From Phycisphaerae bacterium (lineage in GTDB: Bacteria; Planctomycetota; Phycisphaerae; UBA1845): 64,000 nt of DNA. The position numbers and the translations under genes were made by a program. Shown here piece after piece: positions 6,196-62,302 of the stretch. The notes under the pieces are model-generated. The model did not search any database, was not told where the DNA came from, and saw only the letters and a program-made list of their open reading frames with translations. Within the stretch, counting starts at the first letter, position 1. Each line of letters begins with the position of its first letter. The stretch covers positions 124,001-188,000 of the forward strand of contig JAJDDY010000023.1 of assembly GCA_029260075.1 (NCBI GenBank), given 5' to 3'.

Positions 6196-6317
6196 GAGCC
6201 GCGACCGTCAGGGAGCGTTCTTCAAACGTGCAACCGGACCGCTTCAAACGGAGCCGCGACTGTCAGGGAGCGGTTTTCGCGCTTGAGACCGGACCGCTTC
6301 CTTACGGGCGCCGCTCT
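6196..6317. repeat. Family A palindrome, double copy (A1)
   Basis: Two tandem, partly degenerate units of the dispersed palindrome. The first begins GAGCCGCGACCGTCAGGGAG at 6196; the second begins GAGCCGCGACTGTCAGGGAG at 6251 and closes with CCGCTTCCTTACGGGCGCCG. The arms can pair around a loop of about 20 bases. The unit starts four bases after the addB stop codon. Confidence 0.8.
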
Positions 6318-28507: not shown

Positions 28508-28584
28508 GAGCCGCGCCCGTAAGGAAGCGGACGATTGAAAGCCTGTGGTGACCGGACGGAAACGCTCCCTCACGGTCGCGGCTC
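28508..28584. repeat. Family A palindrome (A3)
   Basis: GAGCCGCGCCCGTAAGGAAG on the left, CTCCCTCACGGTCGCGGCTC on the right, pairing around a ~35-base centre. Flanks CGAATGACGGGCGTACT and CGAACCCGTCAAC are shared with A2 and A4. Confidence 0.85.
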
Positions 28585-33067: not shown

Positions 33068-33210
33068 CTCTGTCACGGTTGGAATGACGTGTTTACCGAG
33101 CCGCGACCGTAAGGAAGCGGACGCCGTAAATCCTATCGGGACAGCTTGAAATCGCTCCCTAACGGTCGCGGTTCGGATCGGACGAACCCGTTAGTTAAGT
33201 CGTGACAGAG
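33068..33210. repeat. Family A palindrome, long form with inverted ends (A4)
   Basis: The core runs GAGCCGCGACCGTAAGGAAG to CCCTAACGGTCGCGGTTC. The outer ends CTCTGTCACG and CGTGACAGAG are perfect inverted repeats, so this copy shows an element of about 143 bp. The flanks AATGACG...GTTTAC and GGACGAACCCGTTA are shared with A2 and A3. Confidence 0.85.
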
Positions 33211-34517: not shown

Positions 34518-34728
34518 CACACTCGGTCATAAAGTTGTCGACTTGCTATGAACGTGTTCAAGAAGTCCCCTTCAGAGCCGCGCCCGCAAGGAAGCGGTCC
34601 GGTGTCAGGTGCAAAAACCGCTCCCTGACAGTCGCGGCTCGGTTTGAGGCAACCCATCTTAAACACGCTCAAAGAATACGCGGTACTGGATTCCGTTCGG
34701 TGATGCCGTTTGCCGATGATGGAAACAA
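34378..34728. other. Repeat-filled intergenic region
   Basis: Nearly the whole gap is taken by elements B2 and A5 placed side by side, with about 30 bases between them. No gene. Confidence 0.7.
34550..34670. repeat. Family A palindrome with inverted ends (A5)
   Basis: Core GAGCCGCGCCCGCAAGGAAG (34575) to CCCTGACAGTCGCGGCTC (34640). Outer ends GAACGTGTTCAAGA and TCTTAAACACGCTC are near-perfect inverted repeats, giving an element of 121 bp. These outer ends differ from those of A4, so family A has at least two end types; A6 shares the left end. Confidence 0.85.
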
Positions 34729-52352: not shown

Positions 52353-52434
52353 GAACGTGTTGAAGGAGTCTCATGCAGAGCCGCGCCCGTAAGGAAGCGG
52401 TCCGGTGTCAAGTGTGCATACTGCCCACTGACGG
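52353..52434. repeat. Family A palindrome, left part only (A6)
   Basis: Begins GAACGTGTTGAAGGAGTC directly after the pump stop codon and shows GAGCCGCGCCCGTAAGGAAG at 52378, but the right arm is missing: the sequence turns into family C at 52435. The left end matches that of A5. Confidence 0.75.
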
Positions 52435-52505
52435 GTGGCCAACCTCTTCAGAGGTGGAGGAGTCGAATCGGGCGCCGATTCATCCCCCTCCCCATGGCCC
52501 AAGCC
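52435..52505. repeat. Family C element, degenerate (C1)
   Basis: GTGGCCAACCTCTTCAGAGG at the left and CCCCATGGCCCAAGCC at the right, with GAGTCGAATCGGGCGCCG between. It matches C2 and C3 in the centre but the right end is altered. It directly follows the truncated A6, suggesting insertion into it. The first codons of the next gene's longest frame lie in it. Confidence 0.65.
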
Positions 52506-53822
52506 ATCAGCACAACAACCGAATCGACGTCGAGCGGACCAACCGGTAACATGTCGCGATCAATAGGCGTCTTCGCATGCATGTTGGGCGTAGCCAACCT
52601 AGCAATCATTCTCATCGCGAAAGGAAAGTTGCCCGTGCCAACTCGACAGTTGTTCTTGCGAATCATGCTTTGGTCGCTGCCATTGGCGGCTGTGGGTGGG
52701 GTGTTGGCGGTGTTTACGCAAAGCCGAAGCCTCGCCGAAAGGGTCGTCTGGACAGGAATCACTACGGCCATTGCGTGTGCGCTCTTGATGCCGGTTGGCA
52801 CCCTCGTGGATCGCAGGGAGACTCGGTCGACCGGCCTGTTCGGAATGAGTGCGGTGCTCACTGAATTCTTCTTGGCAATTCTGCTCCTTTGGGATGTACC
52901 GCAGTTGTTGGTTTGGGCTCGACTGGAAGAAGAAATTGCGCTCACGATGATTCTGGTTTTCGTGGTATTCGTTTTCGGGTTTTGCTCGTTGCTTCTTTCC
53001 GGTCGATCGTATGGCCTGTGGGCGGGTCGTATAGGTGTGGTTTTCTCCCTCGCTTCGTTTGTTGCCTGGATGATTTCCGTATGGATACCGAGCAATAGCT
53101 CCTACGGGCCTGTTCGCGACGAATGGATGGAGACCGGTTTCGCACTACTGGTCTGGGGCGTTTTGGCTGGTTTGTGTCTCATTGGGACCCGGTCGGAACG
53201 GCCCCGACGGTGGCGATACGTCGGCATTGCGGCGGGCACCGTGTCCTGCTGTATGTGGTTGATTGATATCTGGGTTGGTGCGGGAAGCGAGCTTGGATAC
53301 ATAGTCTTCTATGGTCTGTTGAGCCTAGCCACGATCTTGGCGCACGCCAACATCTGCGTTCGCGCGGCGATGGCGCCCGACCACGTATGGGTGCGCACTT
53401 GTACGCTTGTCGCCGCAGCGTTCACGGCAATTATGATTGAACTGTCTGTCATTTTCGAAGGACGAGCGGCAATGGTGGGCTACATCGGCATGATAGAGCG
53501 CTGCGCAGCAGCCGGAGGCATCGTGGCGGGATGCGGAACATTGGCTATTGTCGTGTTTGCACGGTTCGATCGCCGCGTCGACTATCAGCCTGCGACGACA
53601 GATCTATCGTGCATCTCAATCGTCTGTCCACGATGTAACAAGAAGCAACAGATCGGTGTGGGTAAATCCGTCTGCGTGAGTTGTCAATTGCGCATCTCCA
53701 TTCGCCTCGAAGAGCCACGATGCCCGACGTGCGAGTATCTACTCTTCGGTCTCACGTCCGACCGCTGCCCGGAGTGCGGCACACCAATCGCCCAGGACAG
53801 CTCGCCGTCGACGGCTTCCTGA
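52494..53822 (+). CDS. Polytopic membrane protein with C-terminal zinc ribbons
   Basis: A 442-residue protein with about ten hydrophobic helices in residues 25-360 and a soluble C-terminal tail carrying two zinc ribbons: CPRCNKKQQIGVGKSVCVSC and CPTCEYLLFGLTSDRCPECG. The second is the same ribbon type as in the proteins at 22245, 53976 and 60858. I recognise no transporter family. The longest frame starts at ATG 52494 inside repeat C1; ATG 52551 (MSRSIGVF) just before the first helix may be the true start. It is convergent with the kinase gene. Confidence 0.65.
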   Translation: MAQAISTTTESTSSGPTGNMSRSIGVFACMLGVANLAIILIAKGKLPVPTRQLFLRIMLWSLPLAAVGGVLAVFTQSRSLAERVVWTGITTAIACALLMPVGTLVDRRETRSTGLFGMSAVLTEFFLAILLLWDVPQLLVWARLEEEIALTMILVFVVFVFGFCSLLLSGRSYGLWAGRIGVVFSLASFVAWMISVWIPSNSSYGPVRDEWMETGFALLVWGVLAGLCLIGTRSERPRRWRYVGIAAGTVSCCMWLIDIWVGAGSELGYIVFYGLLSLATILAHANICVRAAMAPDHVWVRTCTLVAAAFTAIMIELSVIFEGRAAMVGYIGMIERCAAAGGIVAGCGTLAIVVFARFDRRVDYQPATTDLSCISIVCPRCNKKQQIGVGKSVCVSCQLRISIRLEEPRCPTCEYLLFGLTSDRCPECGTPIAQDSSPSTAS

Positions 53823-53879: not shown

Positions 53880-53945
53880 TAGTCGCGCCCGTAAGGAAGC
53901 GGTCCGGTGTCAAGTGCGAAGACCGCTCCCTGACAGTCGCGGCTC
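53880..53945. repeat. Family A palindrome (A7)
   Basis: TAGTCGCGCCCGTAAGGAAG on the left and CCCTGACAGTCGCGGCTC on the right, with GGTCCGGTGTCAAGTGCGAA in the centre. It lies between two convergent genes. Confidence 0.8.
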
Positions 53946-53975: not shown

Positions 53976-56048
53976 CTATGCAGAGAGAGGACCGACTTCG
54001 TCCGGCACATCGCCGAAGATCGTGTTATGGGAAACGGCCACGGAAATCACTCGCTTGATAGACCGACCATACGCGGCCATCAAGGACCAATACAGAAACA
54101 CGATCGCGATAAACAGAATAGAAGGAATGCCGATGCTTGCCGTGCGGAGCCAGAACATTAGTCCCTCGTTCGCCACGGAGTCGGCGGATATGAACGTGGC
54201 ATTGAGGGTTCGACACAGAAGCGTCACGGGGACCAATGCATACAGTAGCCAGGTCAATTGCCGAGTTGTACGGAGTAGTTTCTCATTCGGAATTCGCTCG
54301 GCCAGTTTCCGGAGATACAGCAGAAGAACCGTACATCCGATCAGGCAAGCGGCGAGGGTTATCGGTTTTAGCCATCCGGCATTGGCGACGAGCCCCGAGC
54401 GCGGAGGCCCGTCCCCCGTCAGTGATACGGATACGTTGGCGCTTGCGATCACTCCGAACACGCCCACCGCGGCGCACACCCGAGCGATCCAACGGATTAC
54501 GGATAGAGATTGTGGCGGTTCGAACGCCGGTTCTCGCCGTGTCGACAGGAACACCCCGATCGCGATTCCACCGGTGACGACGGCGCCCGACACGAACATG
54601 AGCAGGACCATTGTGAACTGAAAGCCGTCAGTGTTACCCTGCGGCGCCAAAGCGCCCGCGACCATTGCGATCACCACGGGGGCAATCGGTATTGCGGTTA
54701 TGGCGGCGAAGATGATTGCTTGTCCGCGCGCGATCGTCGCAAGCCACTTCGGATTCGCAAACAACAACCGGTTCCTCCGGATACTTGAGTCGATCGGTTC
54801 ACCGCACTCGGGGCATCGCCCAACCGCTGTAAGACCGCGGAGGTTGTAATCGCATTTCGCGCAAGGGACGTCGTCGATCAGAGTAGCCGCCACCGACGGA
54901 TCCGTTTTCGATTCAGCTTCTACGGGGTGATCACCACGCGAGACGGGCAACACTTCCGCGCAATGCTCCGTCTGCGGTCGCTCTTGCGGCACCTCATCCG
55001 TGGACCCTCGCGAAGAACGCTTCTCGCCCGCGATCTCAGCCAAGCGGTCGAAGTACACCGTAGTCGGCGTGCCCGGGTTGGTACCTTCGGTCGTCGCGTT
55101 CGGTTCCGTAGTCGGTGAACGACGCACGAGTTGCTGTAGCTCGACCGCCCCCGTTCGCAGCAGCTCATCGGTAATGATGGCCGGCTTCAACGCGCTCAAG
55201 AAATGTCGAGCCGTCTTGTAGCGAAACATCGCTTGCTTGTGCGTGGCGCGTTCGAGCATCTCAATCATCGTGCCGTCGAGACCGAGCCGCCGAAGCGGAT
55301 CAACCGGGAGCGGTTCACGCTGGTGTTGCTCACGAACTTCGTCGAGCGTTCCTGTGTATGCCAACTCGCCGGTCACCATTGCGTAAACCATCATGCCCAG
55401 AGCGTACACGTCGCTTTGAAGCGAAACCTCGCCTGTGAACATTTCCGGGGCCATGTAGGCGGGTGTGCCACCCAAGCGTGTGTTCGATGGGCCTCGACGT
55501 CCCAGCGGTCGCGCGAGCGCCAATCCAAAGTCGGTGACCACAACCCGACCATCAAGACCTAGAATGACGTTACCAGGCTTGATGTCGCGATGGATAATCC
55601 CGCGATCGTGCAACTCGCCGATCGCCTCCGAAACGGATTCGAGAATGGCGAGCGTAACGGGCAGGCTTAGCGGTCCCGACAGTTTCAATACGTCGCTTAG
55701 CGCGGGACCATCGACATACTGCATCACGAGGTAGGGAATATCATCGACCACGTCGGCGTGGTGGATCGTAGTAAGCCCCGGATGTTCCAGTCTCGCCGCA
55801 GCGCGAGCACCTTCAACGAAACCGGCGAAACCGGGATCATCAGGACCGGCTACCGCATTAAGTAGGAACTTCACCGCGACGTCTCGATCGAGCATTTGAT
55901 GCCGCCCGAGATACACGACACCCATTCCGCCGCGTCCGATTTCACGTACGAGGCGAACCGGTCCCAGTTCGCGCGGAATCGTCACGTCACCCGGTCGAAT
56001 GTTCCCGGTGGTCGATCCCGTAAGTGTGATCGTGTTTTGTGAACCCAT
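53976..56048 (-). CDS. Membrane Ser/Thr protein kinase (PknB-like) with zinc ribbon
   Basis: A 690-residue protein. The kinase domain (about 30-290) has GRGGMGVVYLG (38-48), Lys60 in VAVKFL, HRDIKPGNVI (His153-Arg-Asp155), DFGLA (Asp173) and GTPAYMAPE, so it should be active. A linker of about 90 residues follows, then a zinc ribbon CAKCDYNLRG ... RCPECGEPID and several membrane helices (about 430-680). No extracellular sensor domain is evident. The ribbon is shared with three other membrane proteins here. The gene is divergent from the proline-rich lipoprotein gene with a 443-base gap. Confidence 0.9.
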   Translation of the reverse strand: MGSQNTITLTGSTTGNIRPGDVTIPRELGPVRLVREIGRGGMGVVYLGRHQMLDRDVAVKFLLNAVAGPDDPGFAGFVEGARAAARLEHPGLTTIHHADVVDDIPYLVMQYVDGPALSDVLKLSGPLSLPVTLAILESVSEAIGELHDRGIIHRDIKPGNVILGLDGRVVVTDFGLALARPLGRRGPSNTRLGGTPAYMAPEMFTGEVSLQSDVYALGMMVYAMVTGELAYTGTLDEVREQHQREPLPVDPLRRLGLDGTMIEMLERATHKQAMFRYKTARHFLSALKPAIITDELLRTGAVELQQLVRRSPTTEPNATTEGTNPGTPTTVYFDRLAEIAGEKRSSRGSTDEVPQERPQTEHCAEVLPVSRGDHPVEAESKTDPSVAATLIDDVPCAKCDYNLRGLTAVGRCPECGEPIDSSIRRNRLLFANPKWLATIARGQAIIFAAITAIPIAPVVIAMVAGALAPQGNTDGFQFTMVLLMFVSGAVVTGGIAIGVFLSTRREPAFEPPQSLSVIRWIARVCAAVGVFGVIASANVSVSLTGDGPPRSGLVANAGWLKPITLAACLIGCTVLLLYLRKLAERIPNEKLLRTTRQLTWLLYALVPVTLLCRTLNATFISADSVANEGLMFWLRTASIGIPSILFIAIVFLYWSLMAAYGRSIKRVISVAVSHNTIFGDVPDEVGPLSA

Positions 56049-56491: not shown

Positions 56492-58921
56492 ATGGCAGCT
56501 TGGATAGGGCACAAACAGAAATTCACGGCCGCGCTCATGGCCGCATTTGGGGTTGCGATCTCAGGATGCGGTATGGACGTCACCGATGGCGCCGGAGGCG
56601 ACACGACCGCCGCCGCGTCGGCCAAACGAGACTACAAGAGCCCCGGTGGCTCGTCAGGCTTGAAGCTGGCGTCGGCAGACTCGGGCGCAGCCACGATCAC
56701 ATCCTTCGACCCCGGAGCCTTCGCTCAGGTGGCAAGCGTGGGCACTGAAGAGCTGCTAGACCCGGCACAGTTTGACGGCGGGGCACCTCCTCCTCCGCCA
56801 CCACCGCCACCACCTCCTCCTCCACCGCCGCCGCCGGCTGACGGAGGAGGAGCTCCGCCGCCGCCGCCTCCTCCACCGGATGACGGTGGGGCCGCGCCGC
56901 CTCCACCACCCCCGCCTGCTGACGGCGGTGCGCCACCACCCCCGGGTGATGGAACTGCGCCGCCTCCGCCCGACGGCGGAAGTGTTCCGCCACCGGATGG
57001 CAGCGCTCCGCCACCGCCGGATGGCGACGTTCCTCCTCCGGACGGTGGGTTCCCCCCTCCGCCCGATGGAAGTGCTCCACCACCGCCTGACGGCGACTTC
57101 CCGCCGCCCCCCGAAGGTGACTTCCCGCCGCCCGCAGATGGCGGTTTTCCGCCACCTCCCGACGGCGGTTTTCCGCCACCGGACGGAGGTTTCCCACCGC
57201 CGCCCGATGGTGGTTTCCCGCCGCCGGACGGAGACTTCCCGCCGCCGCCACCAGACGGGGCGTTCCCACCACCACTGGATGGTGACTTTCTACCGCCGCC
57301 CCCGGACGGCGACTTCTTTCCACCTCCAGACTTCGCCGCTGACGGCGGTCTCTTCACGATCGAAGCGCCGACAGATGGATTCGTAGGCGATGGCGGATTC
57401 TTCGCGCCGCCGGAAGGTTTCGATCCCGACGGTGTGCTGTTCGTTCCGCCGGACGGATTCGTAGGCGATGCGATCTTCCTCCCGCCGCCACCTGAAGGTT
57501 TTGACGGTGATGGGTTCTTCTTCCCGCCACCTGACGGGAACGTGAATGGTCCCGGATTCGACGCGCCTCCGGACTTCTTTGATGTCTACGACGGCTTCCC
57601 GCCGCCGCCTCCGGAATTCGAAGGTAACTGGCAGCCGCCGCCCCCCAACGAGTGGGATGGTGGAAGCGACTGGGCGCCGCCGCCGCCCGACTTGTTGTAC
57701 TCTGATGGCGAATGGTATCCTCCGCCGCCGCCTCCGGGTTGGGATGGTGAGTGGTTCCCGCCGCCGCCGCCGCCCGAGGGTCTTGAGGAATTCCCCGGTG
57801 ATATGTTCTTCTCGAACAAGTTCGATGAGTTCTTCACGCCCGATCTCTTCGTAGAGCAGGGGTTCGAGGATGGTCCGCCTCCGTTCGCGGAATTCCCGTT
57901 CGAGGCGTTCCTGGAAGATCATCCGCTACAAGACATCTTCCCCGACGCGCCGCCGGAGTTTGTACGGGGCTTCTTTGGTGAGTTTGCGTTCGGTGAACTT
58001 CCGCCGCCGCCGGAAGGGTTTCTGGATTTCCCTCCGCCCCCGGAATCTTTCGAGGGACTTAACGGTATTGACTTCCAGTTCGACGAAGCCCTGAATGATT
58101 TCAACGGATTCCTCGAGGGTCTCGACGTGCCACTACCGCCGGGTCGCGACGAGAACGGTCTTCCAAACGGTCCGGATGAACTTGGATTCATTCCGTTCGA
58201 GGACGTGGTGGACCAATTGCCACAGGACTTCCTGTTTCCTGACGAAGCGGTAGCGCTTTTCGATGACTTCGGCGGGACCAATCCGCTCATCAGCGAAGAT
58301 GGTGAGGTCAACCCGGACTTGGAGCAGGCGTTCGCAGATCGGCCGCCATTGCCCGAGGGTTTCGATGGATTCGATTTCGAAGGCGACAGTCCGCAGTTCG
58401 ACGACATGTTCACGAAGTATGACGCCGAGATGGCTGGCGAAACCAACCGCGGTCAAGTGATGACCACGTTTGGGGAAACCGCTGCGGACGGATCGAGCGT
58501 CAAGTGCAGCGAGACTACGCTGCTCGAAGTTGTTCAGGGTAAGGCTACGCCGCTTGTTGAGATGGCGCCAGGCGTCTTCCAAACACAGTGGACAGTTGAC
58601 ATCCGTCAGCAGACTAGTGCCAGTTTCTTGTTCGAGGATCCGAATGATCCGAACGCAGAAGTGCAATTCGACCAAACCAGAGAAGTCGTCAGTCAGATGG
58701 TTTGGACGATGGTGATGCAGGATGTCGATACGGACGGCGATGGTATTCCCGACGAAGTCAGGGTTACCGGATCCAATGCCGTCGAAATCCTGGACGAAAC
58801 GGTCGACGGCGAAGCCCCTGACGGCTTCCCGGAACTGCGACCTCCGCCGGAGCTTCTGCTCGACCTTGGTTTCGAGGGTGTGCTCGGCGTTCAAGAGCCC
58901 GAGCCGAACCCGACGCAGTAG
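56492..58921 (+). CDS. Proline-rich low-complexity lipoprotein
   Basis: An 809-residue protein. It starts at ATG 56492 with AGGAG nine bases upstream and has a lipobox (GVAISGC, Cys26). From about residue 95 a run of 17 prolines begins, followed by some 200 residues of P3-8 blocks split by DGG, DGS, DGD and then DGGF, and then a long stretch of PPPxGF/DGDGFFFPPP repeats rich in Phe, Asp and Glu. Proline codons are mixed (CCT, CCG, CCA, CCC). The C-terminal ~150 residues look globular (GQVMTTFGETAADGSSVKC ... SQMVWTMVMQDVDTDGDGIPDEV), with a DxDGDGxxD calcium-type loop. Net charge is strongly acidic. No family is recognised; a cell-surface spacer or matrix protein is inferred. Confidence 0.75.
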   Translation: MAAWIGHKQKFTAALMAAFGVAISGCGMDVTDGAGGDTTAAASAKRDYKSPGGSSGLKLASADSGAATITSFDPGAFAQVASVGTEELLDPAQFDGGAPPPPPPPPPPPPPPPPPADGGGAPPPPPPPPDDGGAAPPPPPPPADGGAPPPPGDGTAPPPPDGGSVPPPDGSAPPPPDGDVPPPDGGFPPPPDGSAPPPPDGDFPPPPEGDFPPPADGGFPPPPDGGFPPPDGGFPPPPDGGFPPPDGDFPPPPPDGAFPPPLDGDFLPPPPDGDFFPPPDFAADGGLFTIEAPTDGFVGDGGFFAPPEGFDPDGVLFVPPDGFVGDAIFLPPPPEGFDGDGFFFPPPDGNVNGPGFDAPPDFFDVYDGFPPPPPEFEGNWQPPPPNEWDGGSDWAPPPPDLLYSDGEWYPPPPPPGWDGEWFPPPPPPEGLEEFPGDMFFSNKFDEFFTPDLFVEQGFEDGPPPFAEFPFEAFLEDHPLQDIFPDAPPEFVRGFFGEFAFGELPPPPEGFLDFPPPPESFEGLNGIDFQFDEALNDFNGFLEGLDVPLPPGRDENGLPNGPDELGFIPFEDVVDQLPQDFLFPDEAVALFDDFGGTNPLISEDGEVNPDLEQAFADRPPLPEGFDGFDFEGDSPQFDDMFTKYDAEMAGETNRGQVMTTFGETAADGSSVKCSETTLLEVVQGKATPLVEMAPGVFQTQWTVDIRQQTSASFLFEDPNDPNAEVQFDQTREVVSQMVWTMVMQDVDTDGDGIPDEVRVTGSNAVEILDETVDGEAPDGFPELRPPPELLLDLGFEGVLGVQEPEPNPTQ

Positions 58922-58946
58922 CAAAGCGTAAGGTCACATAGTTTCA

Positions 58947-58984
58947 GGGGCGGTTGCGGGTCCCACCGCAGCCGCCCCTTTTTT
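58947..58984 (+). terminator. Strong Rho-independent terminator
   Basis: GGGGCGG (58947-58953) pairs with CCGCCCC (58972-58978) with further inner pairing TTGCGG/CCGCAG, followed by six T. It ends transcription of the proline-rich lipoprotein gene. Confidence 0.9.
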
Positions 58985-59171: not shown

Positions 59172-59237
59172 GAGCCGCGCCCGTAAGGAAGCGGTCCGAT
59201 TGTAAGCGCCAAGACCGCTCCCTCACGGTCGCGGCTC
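59172..59237. repeat. Family A palindrome (A8)
   Basis: GAGCCGCGCCCGTAAGGAAG to CCCTCACGGTCGCGGCTC around GGTCCGATTGTAAGCGCCAA. Outer flanks GGGTGTTTGAGAAG and TCAAGAACCCT look like degenerate inverted ends. Confidence 0.85.
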
Positions 59238-59332: not shown

Positions 59333-60883
59333 GTGACCATCGAACATGCAAACGACTCTTCCCAAGTGACACGCAACGACGGCGACGCGTGCGCGGTTCA
59401 CATCGACCCAGTCCCCATACGTTTCTGGTGGCTGAAACGTCTGTCGGTGCTTTCGTGTCTGCTGCTCGTCGGCCTGGTCGTTCTGCGTCTCTGGTGGGGA
59501 TATGTCGCAGACGCACGGCTTCAAGCCCAACTCGACCACTATCGCTCACTCGGTCAACCCGTCACTGTGGAAGACTTCAACGCAGAACTGGACGCCGTCG
59601 ATCCGGATCAGAATGCGGCCTTGCTCTACGAGAAGGCGATGGACGCGTATGTGGGGACGACGCCATCGGGGGCGCTTCTGAGCGATTACGGTTATTTCGA
59701 TCCGGCCGCCATAGATCGTGACATGGACACAGTGGCCGAGCTCATGGCGTTGAATGAGGACGCCTTGGCCCTCATGCACGAGGCACGCGAGCGCCCGGAC
59801 GTGGCCTGGAGCTGTTGGACGAATTCTCCTGAATGTGGTGGAAGTCTCACTTCTCGTCGTGTGATCGCCGAATTACTGTGGGTGTCGGCGTACCATCACC
59901 ATCGCGCGGGTGACAGTGTTCAAACGGTGGTATCGCTGCTCGACTACTTTCGTTTTGCCGAAGCTGTCGCCGACAATCCGACGTTCATTTCAAGCTTGGT
60001 GGGTTGGTCGATTGAAGCCCGCGGTGGACGGCTCATTGAGGAAATGAGTGTCGCAGTCCCGACTGCTGATGTGACGTCGAGTAGCCAAGACATTGCTCGT
60101 GTACGCGCAGGCATTGTGCGACTCATCATCGAATTGTCTGACGAAAAATCGTACCGCCGCATGGCGGTCCGCGCCTACCTCGGTGACAGAGCATACAGCC
60201 TGCACGTACTCGATGAGATCGGCGCTGTCTCGATAGCGATGCTAGGATCCGGATCCAGACCCGGTAACTGGGGCTTCGCTTATCTTCTCGATGCCACCGT
60301 CCGCCCCTCGCTAATACTGGACATGAGGCGTCATTCGCAAAATGCTACACTCTTGTCCGACACATTTCTGTTACCGAATTGGGCGTGGGCGGAACGAGAG
60401 CTGTCTGATCGAAATCTGTATTCGTCGTTGGTGGACATAGGCGCAAGACCTCTCACGGCATCGTCCGCTGGAATGTTCTCCCGATCTCCCAATCGCGGTC
60501 TATTCTGGTTCTTCCAGCATCTGGCCAATCGGCGCATGGCGGTGGTTGCACTGGCCATTCGCCTATTCGTGATCGATCATGGTAAGCGACCGGAGACGCT
60601 TGGTGAACTCGTTCCAGAATACTTGTCCGTCGTGCCGCTCGATCCGCTGGGCGAAGACGGCGTTGAGATTCGCTACACACCGCACGGCGAACACGCGCTG
60701 CTCTACAGTGTCGGCGAGAATGGCGTTGATGATGGTGGTGTCGACAGAGATATCACAGTGGTGTCCGATCTTCCGAAGCTCGACGACGTCCTCTTCTACC
60801 TCGACGGCCGCCCACGAACGGATGAACCGGTCGTGCAGAAGCAGCCGCCCCCGACCACTACCCCAAGCTCGCCATCACAATGA
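59333..60883 (+). CDS. Membrane-anchored hypothetical protein
   Basis: A 516-residue protein starting at GTG 59333 (GGAAGG upstream; a GTG at 59312 is possible). One membrane helix near residues 38-58 (LKRLSVLSCLLLVGLVVLRLWW) anchors a large helical domain that begins NAELDAVDPDQNAALLYEKAMDAY. The C terminus reads RLFVIDHGKRPETLGELVPEYL ... DPLGEDGVEIRYT ... LYSVGENGVDDGG, a pattern common at the ends of planctomycete proteins of unknown function. It overlaps the convergent downstream gene by 26 bases. Confidence 0.7.
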   Translation: MTIEHANDSSQVTRNDGDACAVHIDPVPIRFWWLKRLSVLSCLLLVGLVVLRLWWGYVADARLQAQLDHYRSLGQPVTVEDFNAELDAVDPDQNAALLYEKAMDAYVGTTPSGALLSDYGYFDPAAIDRDMDTVAELMALNEDALALMHEARERPDVAWSCWTNSPECGGSLTSRRVIAELLWVSAYHHHRAGDSVQTVVSLLDYFRFAEAVADNPTFISSLVGWSIEARGGRLIEEMSVAVPTADVTSSSQDIARVRAGIVRLIIELSDEKSYRRMAVRAYLGDRAYSLHVLDEIGAVSIAMLGSGSRPGNWGFAYLLDATVRPSLILDMRRHSQNATLLSDTFLLPNWAWAERELSDRNLYSSLVDIGARPLTASSAGMFSRSPNRGLFWFFQHLANRRMAVVALAIRLFVIDHGKRPETLGELVPEYLSVVPLDPLGEDGVEIRYTPHGEHALLYSVGENGVDDGGVDRDITVVSDLPKLDDVLFYLDGRPRTDEPVVQKQPPPTTTPSSPSQ

Positions 60884-61790
60884 GCACGTAGTACACAGCA
60901 GATGGCAGCACGACCAGAATCAAACCGGCCAGCACAACCCACGCGCCCGGCGCCAATACCGCCAGGCCGATCCGCCGACCCCTTGCCCGTGGCATGACAC
61001 AACCGGCCACGCGGAGCAGATTGACCCACCAAACTACTACCGCGAGCAGCGCAGCACCGCCCATCGCTATCAGCAGGATCGTCCACTGTTCGCTTGTCAC
61101 CGATTGCCTACCCGTGCCGAGGAAGTGCAAGTGGCCGAACCCCAAGGTGTCCAGCGCAGCCACGATCGGAACGCCCGCTATCGCCATCGGTGCGCAAAGA
61201 TAATAGCTCATCGCGATACCGGTGTTCTGCATTCTCGTGGACAGGCCCTTCGGATGAAACCAATAGCTTGGCACACCGGTCGCGGCAATGAGGTACAGCA
61301 AGAAGCAGACATGCAGCAGCGCGACCGGCCACACTTCCTCGAAGGCGAGTTCCATCTGCGTCGGGCCGGTTGGCATGAAGAACTGCATCGTTCCTGGCAT
61401 CGGCTTGGGTGCGAACTGCGGCGGTCCCCACAGATATATGGCCAGCGTGTACACCAGAAACGGAAGGTACAAATGCAGCACGGTGACCAACTGAAACAGG
61501 CGGGCGTCGCGATACGCCACACGTCGGGCGGATTCCTCGCGGAATCTCCGGGGCTGCTTGATGACCATCCACATCGTTCGCCAGTACGCACGGAATCGGC
61601 CTAGTTCTTTCCTGTGGACCCACGGTATCCGGCTGACTGGCGACCCCATGTCCACAAGCGAGTAGCCACACTCGGAGCATCGATCGCTGACCGATCCGCT
61701 CAGGTTGTATCCGCACACCGGACAGTTGACGTCCGCGTCGAAGGATGTCGCGCTCGGCGGGGAGGGAAGGCCGTTGGTTGTTGTAATCAA
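60858..61790 (-). CDS. Yip1-like membrane protein with N-terminal zinc ribbon
   Basis: A 310-residue protein. The zinc ribbon is at the N terminus (CPVCGYNLSG ... RCSECGYSL, about residues 23-44). It is followed by RAYWRTMWMVIKQPRRFREE, a typical entry into Yip1-type domains, and about five membrane helices. The family function in bacteria is unknown. The ribbon is the same short type as in the proteins at 22245, 52494 and 53976, where it is C-terminal or internal. Confidence 0.7.
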   Translation of the reverse strand: MITTTNGLPSPPSATSFDADVNCPVCGYNLSGSVSDRCSECGYSLVDMGSPVSRIPWVHRKELGRFRAYWRTMWMVIKQPRRFREESARRVAYRDARLFQLVTVLHLYLPFLVYTLAIYLWGPPQFAPKPMPGTMQFFMPTGPTQMELAFEEVWPVALLHVCFLLYLIAATGVPSYWFHPKGLSTRMQNTGIAMSYYLCAPMAIAGVPIVAALDTLGFGHLHFLGTGRQSVTSEQWTILLIAMGGAALLAVVVWWVNLLRVAGCVMPRARGRRIGLAVLAPGAWVVLAGLILVVLPSAVYYVLIVMASLG

Positions 61791-61899: not shown

Positions 61900-61967
61900 G
61901 AGCCGCGCCCGTGAGGAAGCGGTCCGGTTTCAAGTGCAAGAAAACCGCTTCCTTACGGTCGCGGCTC
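61900..61967. repeat. Family A palindrome (A9)
   Basis: GAGCCGCGCCCGTGAGGAAG to CTTCCTTACGGTCGCGGCTC, arms nearly perfect. Confidence 0.9.
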
Positions 61968-62236: not shown

Positions 62237-62302
62237 GAGCCGCGCCCGTGAGGAAGCGGTCCGTTTTCATTTGCGAAAACCGCTTCCTCACGGTCGCGGC
62301 TC
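62237..62302. repeat. Family A palindrome (A10)
   Basis: GAGCCGCGCCCGTGAGGAAG to CTTCCTCACGGTCGCGGCTC, perfect except for one mismatch. An extra half-site TTACGGTCGCGGCTC follows at 62321. Confidence 0.9.

Follow-up and report, generated by a model that had tools for sequence, protein, structure and literature searches.

The closest described systems are lipoproteins in which a spacer separates a lipid anchor from a folded domain. RcsF, an outer-membrane lipoprotein of E. coli, combines a lipidated N-terminal cysteine with a proline-rich disordered N-terminal region and a folded C-terminal domain (PMC9907809). In LpoB, a flexible linker bridges the gap in the envelope, and the length of this linker is required to reach the partner (PMC12826056). 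YceB of E. coli is a lipid-anchored TULIP protein with a spacer of 10 residues; TULIP domains are defined as a six-element alpha-beta4-alpha super-roll of at least 175 residues, in which elements 1 and 6 are helical (PMC5507252). Regarding polyproline, it is established that stalling at PPP is relieved by EF-P (e.g. PMC4176338, PMC4890201), and E. coli is reported to lack proteins that contain three or more PPP units (PMC4218817). Here we analyse a gene for a proline-rich lipoprotein of Phycisphaerae, representing a family of which we found no description in Planctomycetota in the open-access papers.

Gene structure and proline content

The gene is located at 56492-58921 on the forward strand of the window (the whole analysed stretch of 64,000 nucleotides, to which coordinates refer unless stated otherwise). 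It starts with ATG and, as judged from the sequence and the orthologues, encodes a predicted lipoprotein of 809 amino acids, the mature chain of which has a net charge of about -135. An alternative GTG start 48 bases upstream also leaves the frame open; the ATG is favoured by the signal peptide that begins there and by an AGGAG-like site directly before it.

The first 25 residues (56492-56566) form a putative lipoprotein signal peptide with the lipobox VAISG followed by Cys26. The mature N-terminal region (aa 26-97, 56567-56782) contains the motif Y.SPGG.SGL...SGAA..(S)FDPGAF, recognised by comparison of the orthologues. It is followed by an array of PPP(P)DG(G/D)x units (aa 98-290, 56783-57361), the length of which differs among orthologues, and by an aromatic PPPP module (aa 286-440, 57347-57811), delimited by orthologue comparison and containing PPEGF...GDGFFFPPP, WQPPPP, EWDG and GEWFPPPPPP. 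The remainder consists of a conserved segment, PF..FPF..FL...IIP..PP.F...FG.F.FG..PPPP.GF, with a variable linker (aa 463-565, 57878-58186), and of the C-terminal domain (aa 566-798, 58187-58885), for which the alignment and models indicate short helices, then an antiparallel beta-meander, and a DTDGDGIPDE loop. The order of segments agrees with the initial annotation, i.e. a PPP-DGG array (approximately aa 98-290), a PPPxGF array rich in Phe, Asp, Glu and Trp (approximately aa 291-462) and then the C-terminal part.

Proline accounts for 183 of the 809 residues (22.6 %) and there are two cysteines. We counted 31 runs of PPP or longer. The reported run of 17 prolines was found at aa 99-115 (56786-56836) within the first array, and the further runs are P8, P7, twice P6 and twice P5; no run of P5 or longer is present in any other frame or place of the window. 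The proline codons are mixed, as had been claimed, with all four in use across the gene (CCG 98, CCA 31, CCT 28 and CCC 26) and CCT, CCG and CCA within the P17 run itself. EF-P is encoded in the same genome, with a tip loop that by eye is of the lysine type (GNKGS), and it is therefore reasonable to predict that translation of the lipoprotein depends heavily on EF-P.

An intrinsic terminator on the forward strand, consisting of a 14-bp GC-rich stem and T6, is located at 58946-58979, 25 bases past the stop codon, and its folding z-score is -5.2. The gene upstream is a divergent Ser/Thr kinase gene and there is no close same-strand neighbour upstream. Because of this layout and the strong terminator, the lipoprotein gene looks like a monocistronic unit with its own terminator, as far as the sequence can tell.

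Orthologues and distribution

Using the C-terminal 291 amino acids as a query, we found orthologues in 10 of the 51 genomes of the same GTDB family, its own genome included. A profile of the C-terminal domain (233 residues) matched 10 of the 114 genomes examined from the order, each a member of this one family, and no homologue of the domain was recovered in 391 other genomes sampled from the phylum. An N-terminal profile added two carriers, G030 and G032, in which the gene is at contig ends, raising the count in the family to 12 of 51, which is a lower bound for MAGs as proline-rich genes break assemblies. The same profile recovered the missing N-termini of two truncated orthologues, and the translations from L078 and L081 agree. 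When genome contigs were searched with a single sequence there was no match, while the profile search gave nine loci, from the same organisms as the whole-genome search. In four genomes (L078, L079, L080 and L081) the contig stops near the N-terminus of the lipoprotein, as would be expected if assembly failed in the proline array. The carriers are listed in GTDB r220 as uncultured MAGs (Planctomycetota, Phycisphaerae or Phycisphaerales bacterium) and originate from sediment and groundwater.

We considered the possibility that there is no real gene here, but only a GC-rich low-complexity stretch, or that the true gene is a poly-Gly frame on the opposite strand. Such an antisense frame exists at 56725-57357, and long CCN runs in these genomes mostly represent poly-Gly on the other strand. 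However, the sense frame is kept across at least 10 genera and pN is far smaller than pS in each of its regions; the frame opens with a lipobox and closes with a conserved domain, behind which a terminator follows. We therefore rejected the antisense gene on the grounds of sense-frame conservation and regard this whole explanation as scarcely credible. As judged by their sequences, the proline-rich lipoproteins are a real, conserved and lineage-restricted family in one bacterial family.

Long CCN runs are frequent in the 51 family genomes, where true long polyproline was rarer than poly-Gly encoded on the other strand. The poly-Gly proteins (examples include L049, L050 and L067), with runs up to G31, comprise secreted proteases, GG-rich RNA-binding proteins and lipoproteins with CxGGGGGG, then a cytochrome-like CxxCH.

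Conserved parts and selection

Full-length alignment showed a signal peptide with lipobox, and that the N-terminal motif, the proline-rich array and the C-terminal domain are kept in all orthologues, despite the varying length of the array. All 8 orthologues that have a complete N-terminus share the Gly-Cys of the lipobox (Gly25-Cys26) without variation, which supports the proposed lipid anchor at the level of prediction. The N-terminal motif reads Y.SPGGTSGL.IGS..SGAATL.SFDPGAF in the orthologues (in short, YESPGGTSGL...SFDPGAF). At the other end, the C-terminal domain (233 residues) displays 51-74 % identity among orthologues with 62 invariant columns, and the segment upstream of it is conserved as FPF..FL...IIP..PP.F...FG.F.FG.VPPPP.GF. 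The aromatic (Trp-PPPP) module is present in four orthologues, where it is 66-81 % identical, and is missing from at least 6 of the 10 sequences. The net charge is strongly negative in every orthologue. The initial annotation pointed to a small globular end; this part is indeed a conserved domain, but the N-terminal motif, and also the Trp-PPPP module in the four species that have it, are equally or better conserved.

We compared the gene with its nearest orthologue (G067) using Nei-Gojobori counts. The values of pN/pS were 0.26/0.57 for the N-terminal region, 0.16/0.70 for the PPP array (the least certain value, because the repeat alignment is not unique), 0.10/0.68 for the aromatic module, which is the slowest-evolving part, 0.24/0.62 for the linker segment and 0.16/0.69 for the C-terminal domain; only the direction of these values should be trusted, because synonymous differences are near saturation for more distant pairs. 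Since the ratio is below 0.5 in each comparison, all regions, repeats included, are by these counts under purifying selection.

Regarding the history of the repeats, Tandem Repeats Finder detected a decayed DNA array at 57041-57249 (period 24, 9 copies, 69 % match) and a second one at 56784-56832 (period 24, 2 copies, 88 %). The longest proline run varies from 5 to 21 among the orthologues, total proline is 21-28 %, and the unit types differ by species, with PPPPDGGF here, DPNNPPPDGEFPPF in G033 and PPPPPPDGT in G016. The decayed arrays and the differences in run length indicate that the array grew and shrank by duplication long ago and has since diverged. The view that the repeats are kept at the protein level and did not arise by recent slippage is supported by the low pN relative to pS that the repeats also show, with the qualification that decayed duplication arrays persist in the DNA. 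The 17 prolines are present but hardly a hallmark: given the range of 5-21, the number is incidental and the conserved property is proline richness. Expansion and contraction of the array suggest that its approximate length and composition are selected, rather than an exact proline count.

The C-terminal domain

Searches of Pfam, NCBIfam and PDB sequences resulted in no family or solved structure matching the lipoprotein or its C-terminal domain, and PHROGs gave nothing better than E 0.016. The latter hit, a minor-tail match over 25 residues around the DTDGDG loop, and PDB-sequence matches at E 0.27-0.52 were treated as chance. Neither LpoB nor Pal/OmpA nor any other Pfam family matched the sequence, and no C-terminal domain homologous to that of RcsF or LpoB was detected in Pfam, NCBIfam or PDB sequences. 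The statement that no described family looks like this one therefore holds for Pfam, NCBIfam, PHROGs and PDB sequences, and the domain on its own matched no known enzyme or adhesin family. The DTDGDGIPDE loop resembles calcium-binding (EF-hand-like) loops in sequence; the calcium-binding repeat TSP3_bac scored 13.1 bits, under its cut-off of 25, and the best EF-hand match (E 0.0013, in one orthologue) was below the curated cut-offs.

In an AlphaFold2 model of the domain from ten sequences (pLDDT 73.5, pTM 0.59), two short helices precede a long beta-meander of antiparallel strands, and most of the sheet has pLDDT 74-88. Confidence was lower when the model was extended to aa 463-798 (pLDDT 57.6), yet the same sheet strands appeared in this second independent run. 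Searching with the model of the domain, Foldseek gave no match with E below 0.001, and a fold search against viral structures gave no match. The best Foldseek match was JHBP (E 2.7e-3, probability 0.91), at a Foldseek TM of 0.26-0.28. In VIA-align, TULIP proteins dominated the best rows for both models, at Z values that the tool deems typical of models without true relatives: LBP 7.9 and 8.1, BPI 7.8 and 7.9, CETP 7.2, Der p/f 7 about 7, bacterial P47 6.7 and JHBP about 6.5, with rmsd of 4.5-5 A.

These matches raise the possibility that the domain is a TULIP-like lipid carrier, moving hydrophobic cargo between envelope layers on a long proline boom. TULIP proteins lead VIA-align for both models and JHBP is the best hit of Foldseek. 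However, beta-barrel membrane proteins score almost equally well in VIA-align, no TULIP family of Pfam matches, and in the moderate-confidence models the helical first and last elements are absent, the longest helix having 10 residues and preceding the sheet. As such Z values are common for models without true relatives and the defining helical elements are absent from the models, we keep TULIP as a lead rather than an assignment, and we consider a lipid carrier unlikely.

Genomic context

No neighbour was common to the ten loci, and we therefore rejected a conserved operon. A distant kinase similarity between the neighbours in G000 and G016 was dismissed as a common domain. In genus g10 the gene is present in one of three species (G067); the other two, G009 and G068, do not have it and are collinear with each other for 11 kb surrounding the isochorismatase gene, which in G067 is the flanking neighbour of the lipoprotein gene. 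G067 follows them for approximately 5.5 kb on one side, and the match ends about 340 bases upstream of the ATG. Because the neighbours are not conserved and congeners are without the gene, comparison of the loci identifies it as an accessory gene, at differing genomic places. Its patchy presence may reflect either gain by transfer or repeated loss.

Several other elements were noticed around these loci. The neighbour at L020:3047-6181 (+) in G067 encodes a protein of 1044 aa with a dockerin-type module at its C-terminus; each genome contains dozens of copies of this module. In the window, the divergent Ser/Thr protein kinase (53976-56048, reverse strand) contains membrane segments and, in its C-terminal part, a zinc-ribbon-like CxxC..CPECG motif, and its motif CPxCxYxLxGL...CPECG recurs in the genes at 52494-53822 and 60858-61790. 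A dispersed palindromic intergenic repeat of approximately 65-95 bases, with the end AGCCGCGCCCGTAAGGAAGCGGTC and its inverted copy, occurs at about nine places, several as facing pairs (52379-52402, 53881-53904, 59173-59236, 61901-61966 and 62238-62301, with further copies at 6292-6315, 28509-28532, 33099-33122 and 34576-34599). It gave 12 matches, with none expected by chance.

Proposed function and alternatives

The best reading, to which we give an even chance, is a lipid-anchored, acidic, polyproline-II-like stalk presenting a beta-sheet head. The lipoprotein would be secreted and lipidated on its N-terminal cysteine, most likely residing in the outer membrane. Short PPP(P)-[DE]G-aromatic units, repeated in tandem over approximately 370 residues, would form an extended, negatively charged stalk with a polyproline-II-like conformation. 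The stalk would act as a spacer, keeping the conserved head with its EF-hand-like acidic loop off the membrane, either spanning the peptidoglycan or exposed on the cell, and there the head may bind a partner. The outer membrane is favoured because the +2 residue after the lipobox is Gly here and never Asp in any orthologue, although this criterion of Lol sorting was derived from E. coli and Planctomycetota may not follow it. There is a tension in this model, as the number of residues far exceeds what a periplasm of 25-35 nm would need if the stalk were fully extended. Moreover, the aromatic Trp-PPPP module evolves slower than the head, which suggests a binding role rather than a mere spacer.

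The main alternative takes this last point further and regards the repeats as the working part. The protein would then be a surface or matrix scaffold (an adhesin, or a cation- or mineral-binding polymer) with multivalent ligand binding, and the C-terminal domain an assembly or capping module. In the sequences that have it, the aromatic module evolves slowest (pN 0.10, compared to 0.16 in the head; 81 % identity). The net charge is about -135, and an array of about 30 similar units would suit avidity. On the other hand, the module is missing from at least 6 of 10 sequences whereas the C-terminal domain and N-terminal motif are universal, and family searches found no adhesin family and no sortase- or T9SS-type sorting domain. 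We hold this scaffold to be possible but doubtful. Rather improbable, in our estimate, is a more novel reading, a new class of envelope protein in which the array is a selected, structured binding device (a polyproline-II bundle or a multivalent ligand) joined to a head fold new to bacterial lipoproteins, the whole being an exchangeable accessory of one Phycisphaerae family.

The surface protein ActA of Listeria carries acidic-aromatic-PPPP repeats, and the (D/E)FPPPP units could in the same manner mimic ligands of EVH1 domains, or serve a GYF-type reader, in contact with another cell. Ten [FWY]PxPhiP matches, one of them an exact [DE]FPPPPx[DE], occur here, and Trp/Tyr-PPPPPP blocks are conserved in four species. 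However, FPPPP itself is not conserved, with 8 copies here against 1-3 in most orthologues, and the exact ActA form (D/E)FPPPPx(D/E) is present as a single copy in just two of the 10 orthologues. No WH1/EVH1 domain was found in the 51 family genomes (the control was likewise without a match), GYF_2 occurs in nearly all genomes of the family irrespective of whether they carry the gene, and the hosts are MAGs from sediment and groundwater. Having no support across the 51 genomes, both readers were rejected, and we judge mimicry to be very improbable.

This undescribed family concentrates about 30 polyproline stall sites in one bacterial chain, whereas E. coli is reported to have no chain with as many as three PPP units, and it offers a natural extreme test for EF-P and its helpers. 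It is likewise a test of the way in which Planctomycetota span their unusual envelope. The aromatic module evolves slowly, which suggests that low-complexity arrays can be binding devices and not filler, and a patchy, accessory family may point to differing lifestyles among close relatives.

Comparison with known systems

Returning to the stalk that presents a head, RcsF is alike in its lipid anchor, proline-rich region and folded C-terminal head. Its proline-rich part is approximately 33 residues long compared to approximately 370 here, its core has disulfides whereas the head of the stalk lipoprotein is without a conserved cysteine pair, and no Rcs partner genes adjoin the locus. Lipoproteins of the LpoB and Pal type share the spacer design, but the array described here is far longer, acidic and aromatic; the known RcsF, LpoB or Pal designs have about a tenth of its stalk length. 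YceB and other TULIP lipoproteins are similar in combining a lipoprotein with a beta-rich C-terminal domain, with a weak TULIP-like fold score, although our models are without the defining helical elements. ActA has the same type of repeat, but the motif is not conserved among our orthologues, and anchor, domain and lifestyle differ. The TonB spacer, PrpA and the streptococcal proline-rich regions also place a long, extended proline-rich segment near the envelope; they have no homologous domain and a different type of anchor. A predicted lipid anchor, a proline-rich spacer and a head, the latter modelled with pLDDT 73.5, are all found in the present lipoprotein, and it resembles an extreme version of the established design of anchor, flexible proline-rich spacer and head rather than a wholly new system. 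What is new is the undescribed, lineage-restricted family; the anchor-spacer-head architecture was already known and is here taken to an extreme.
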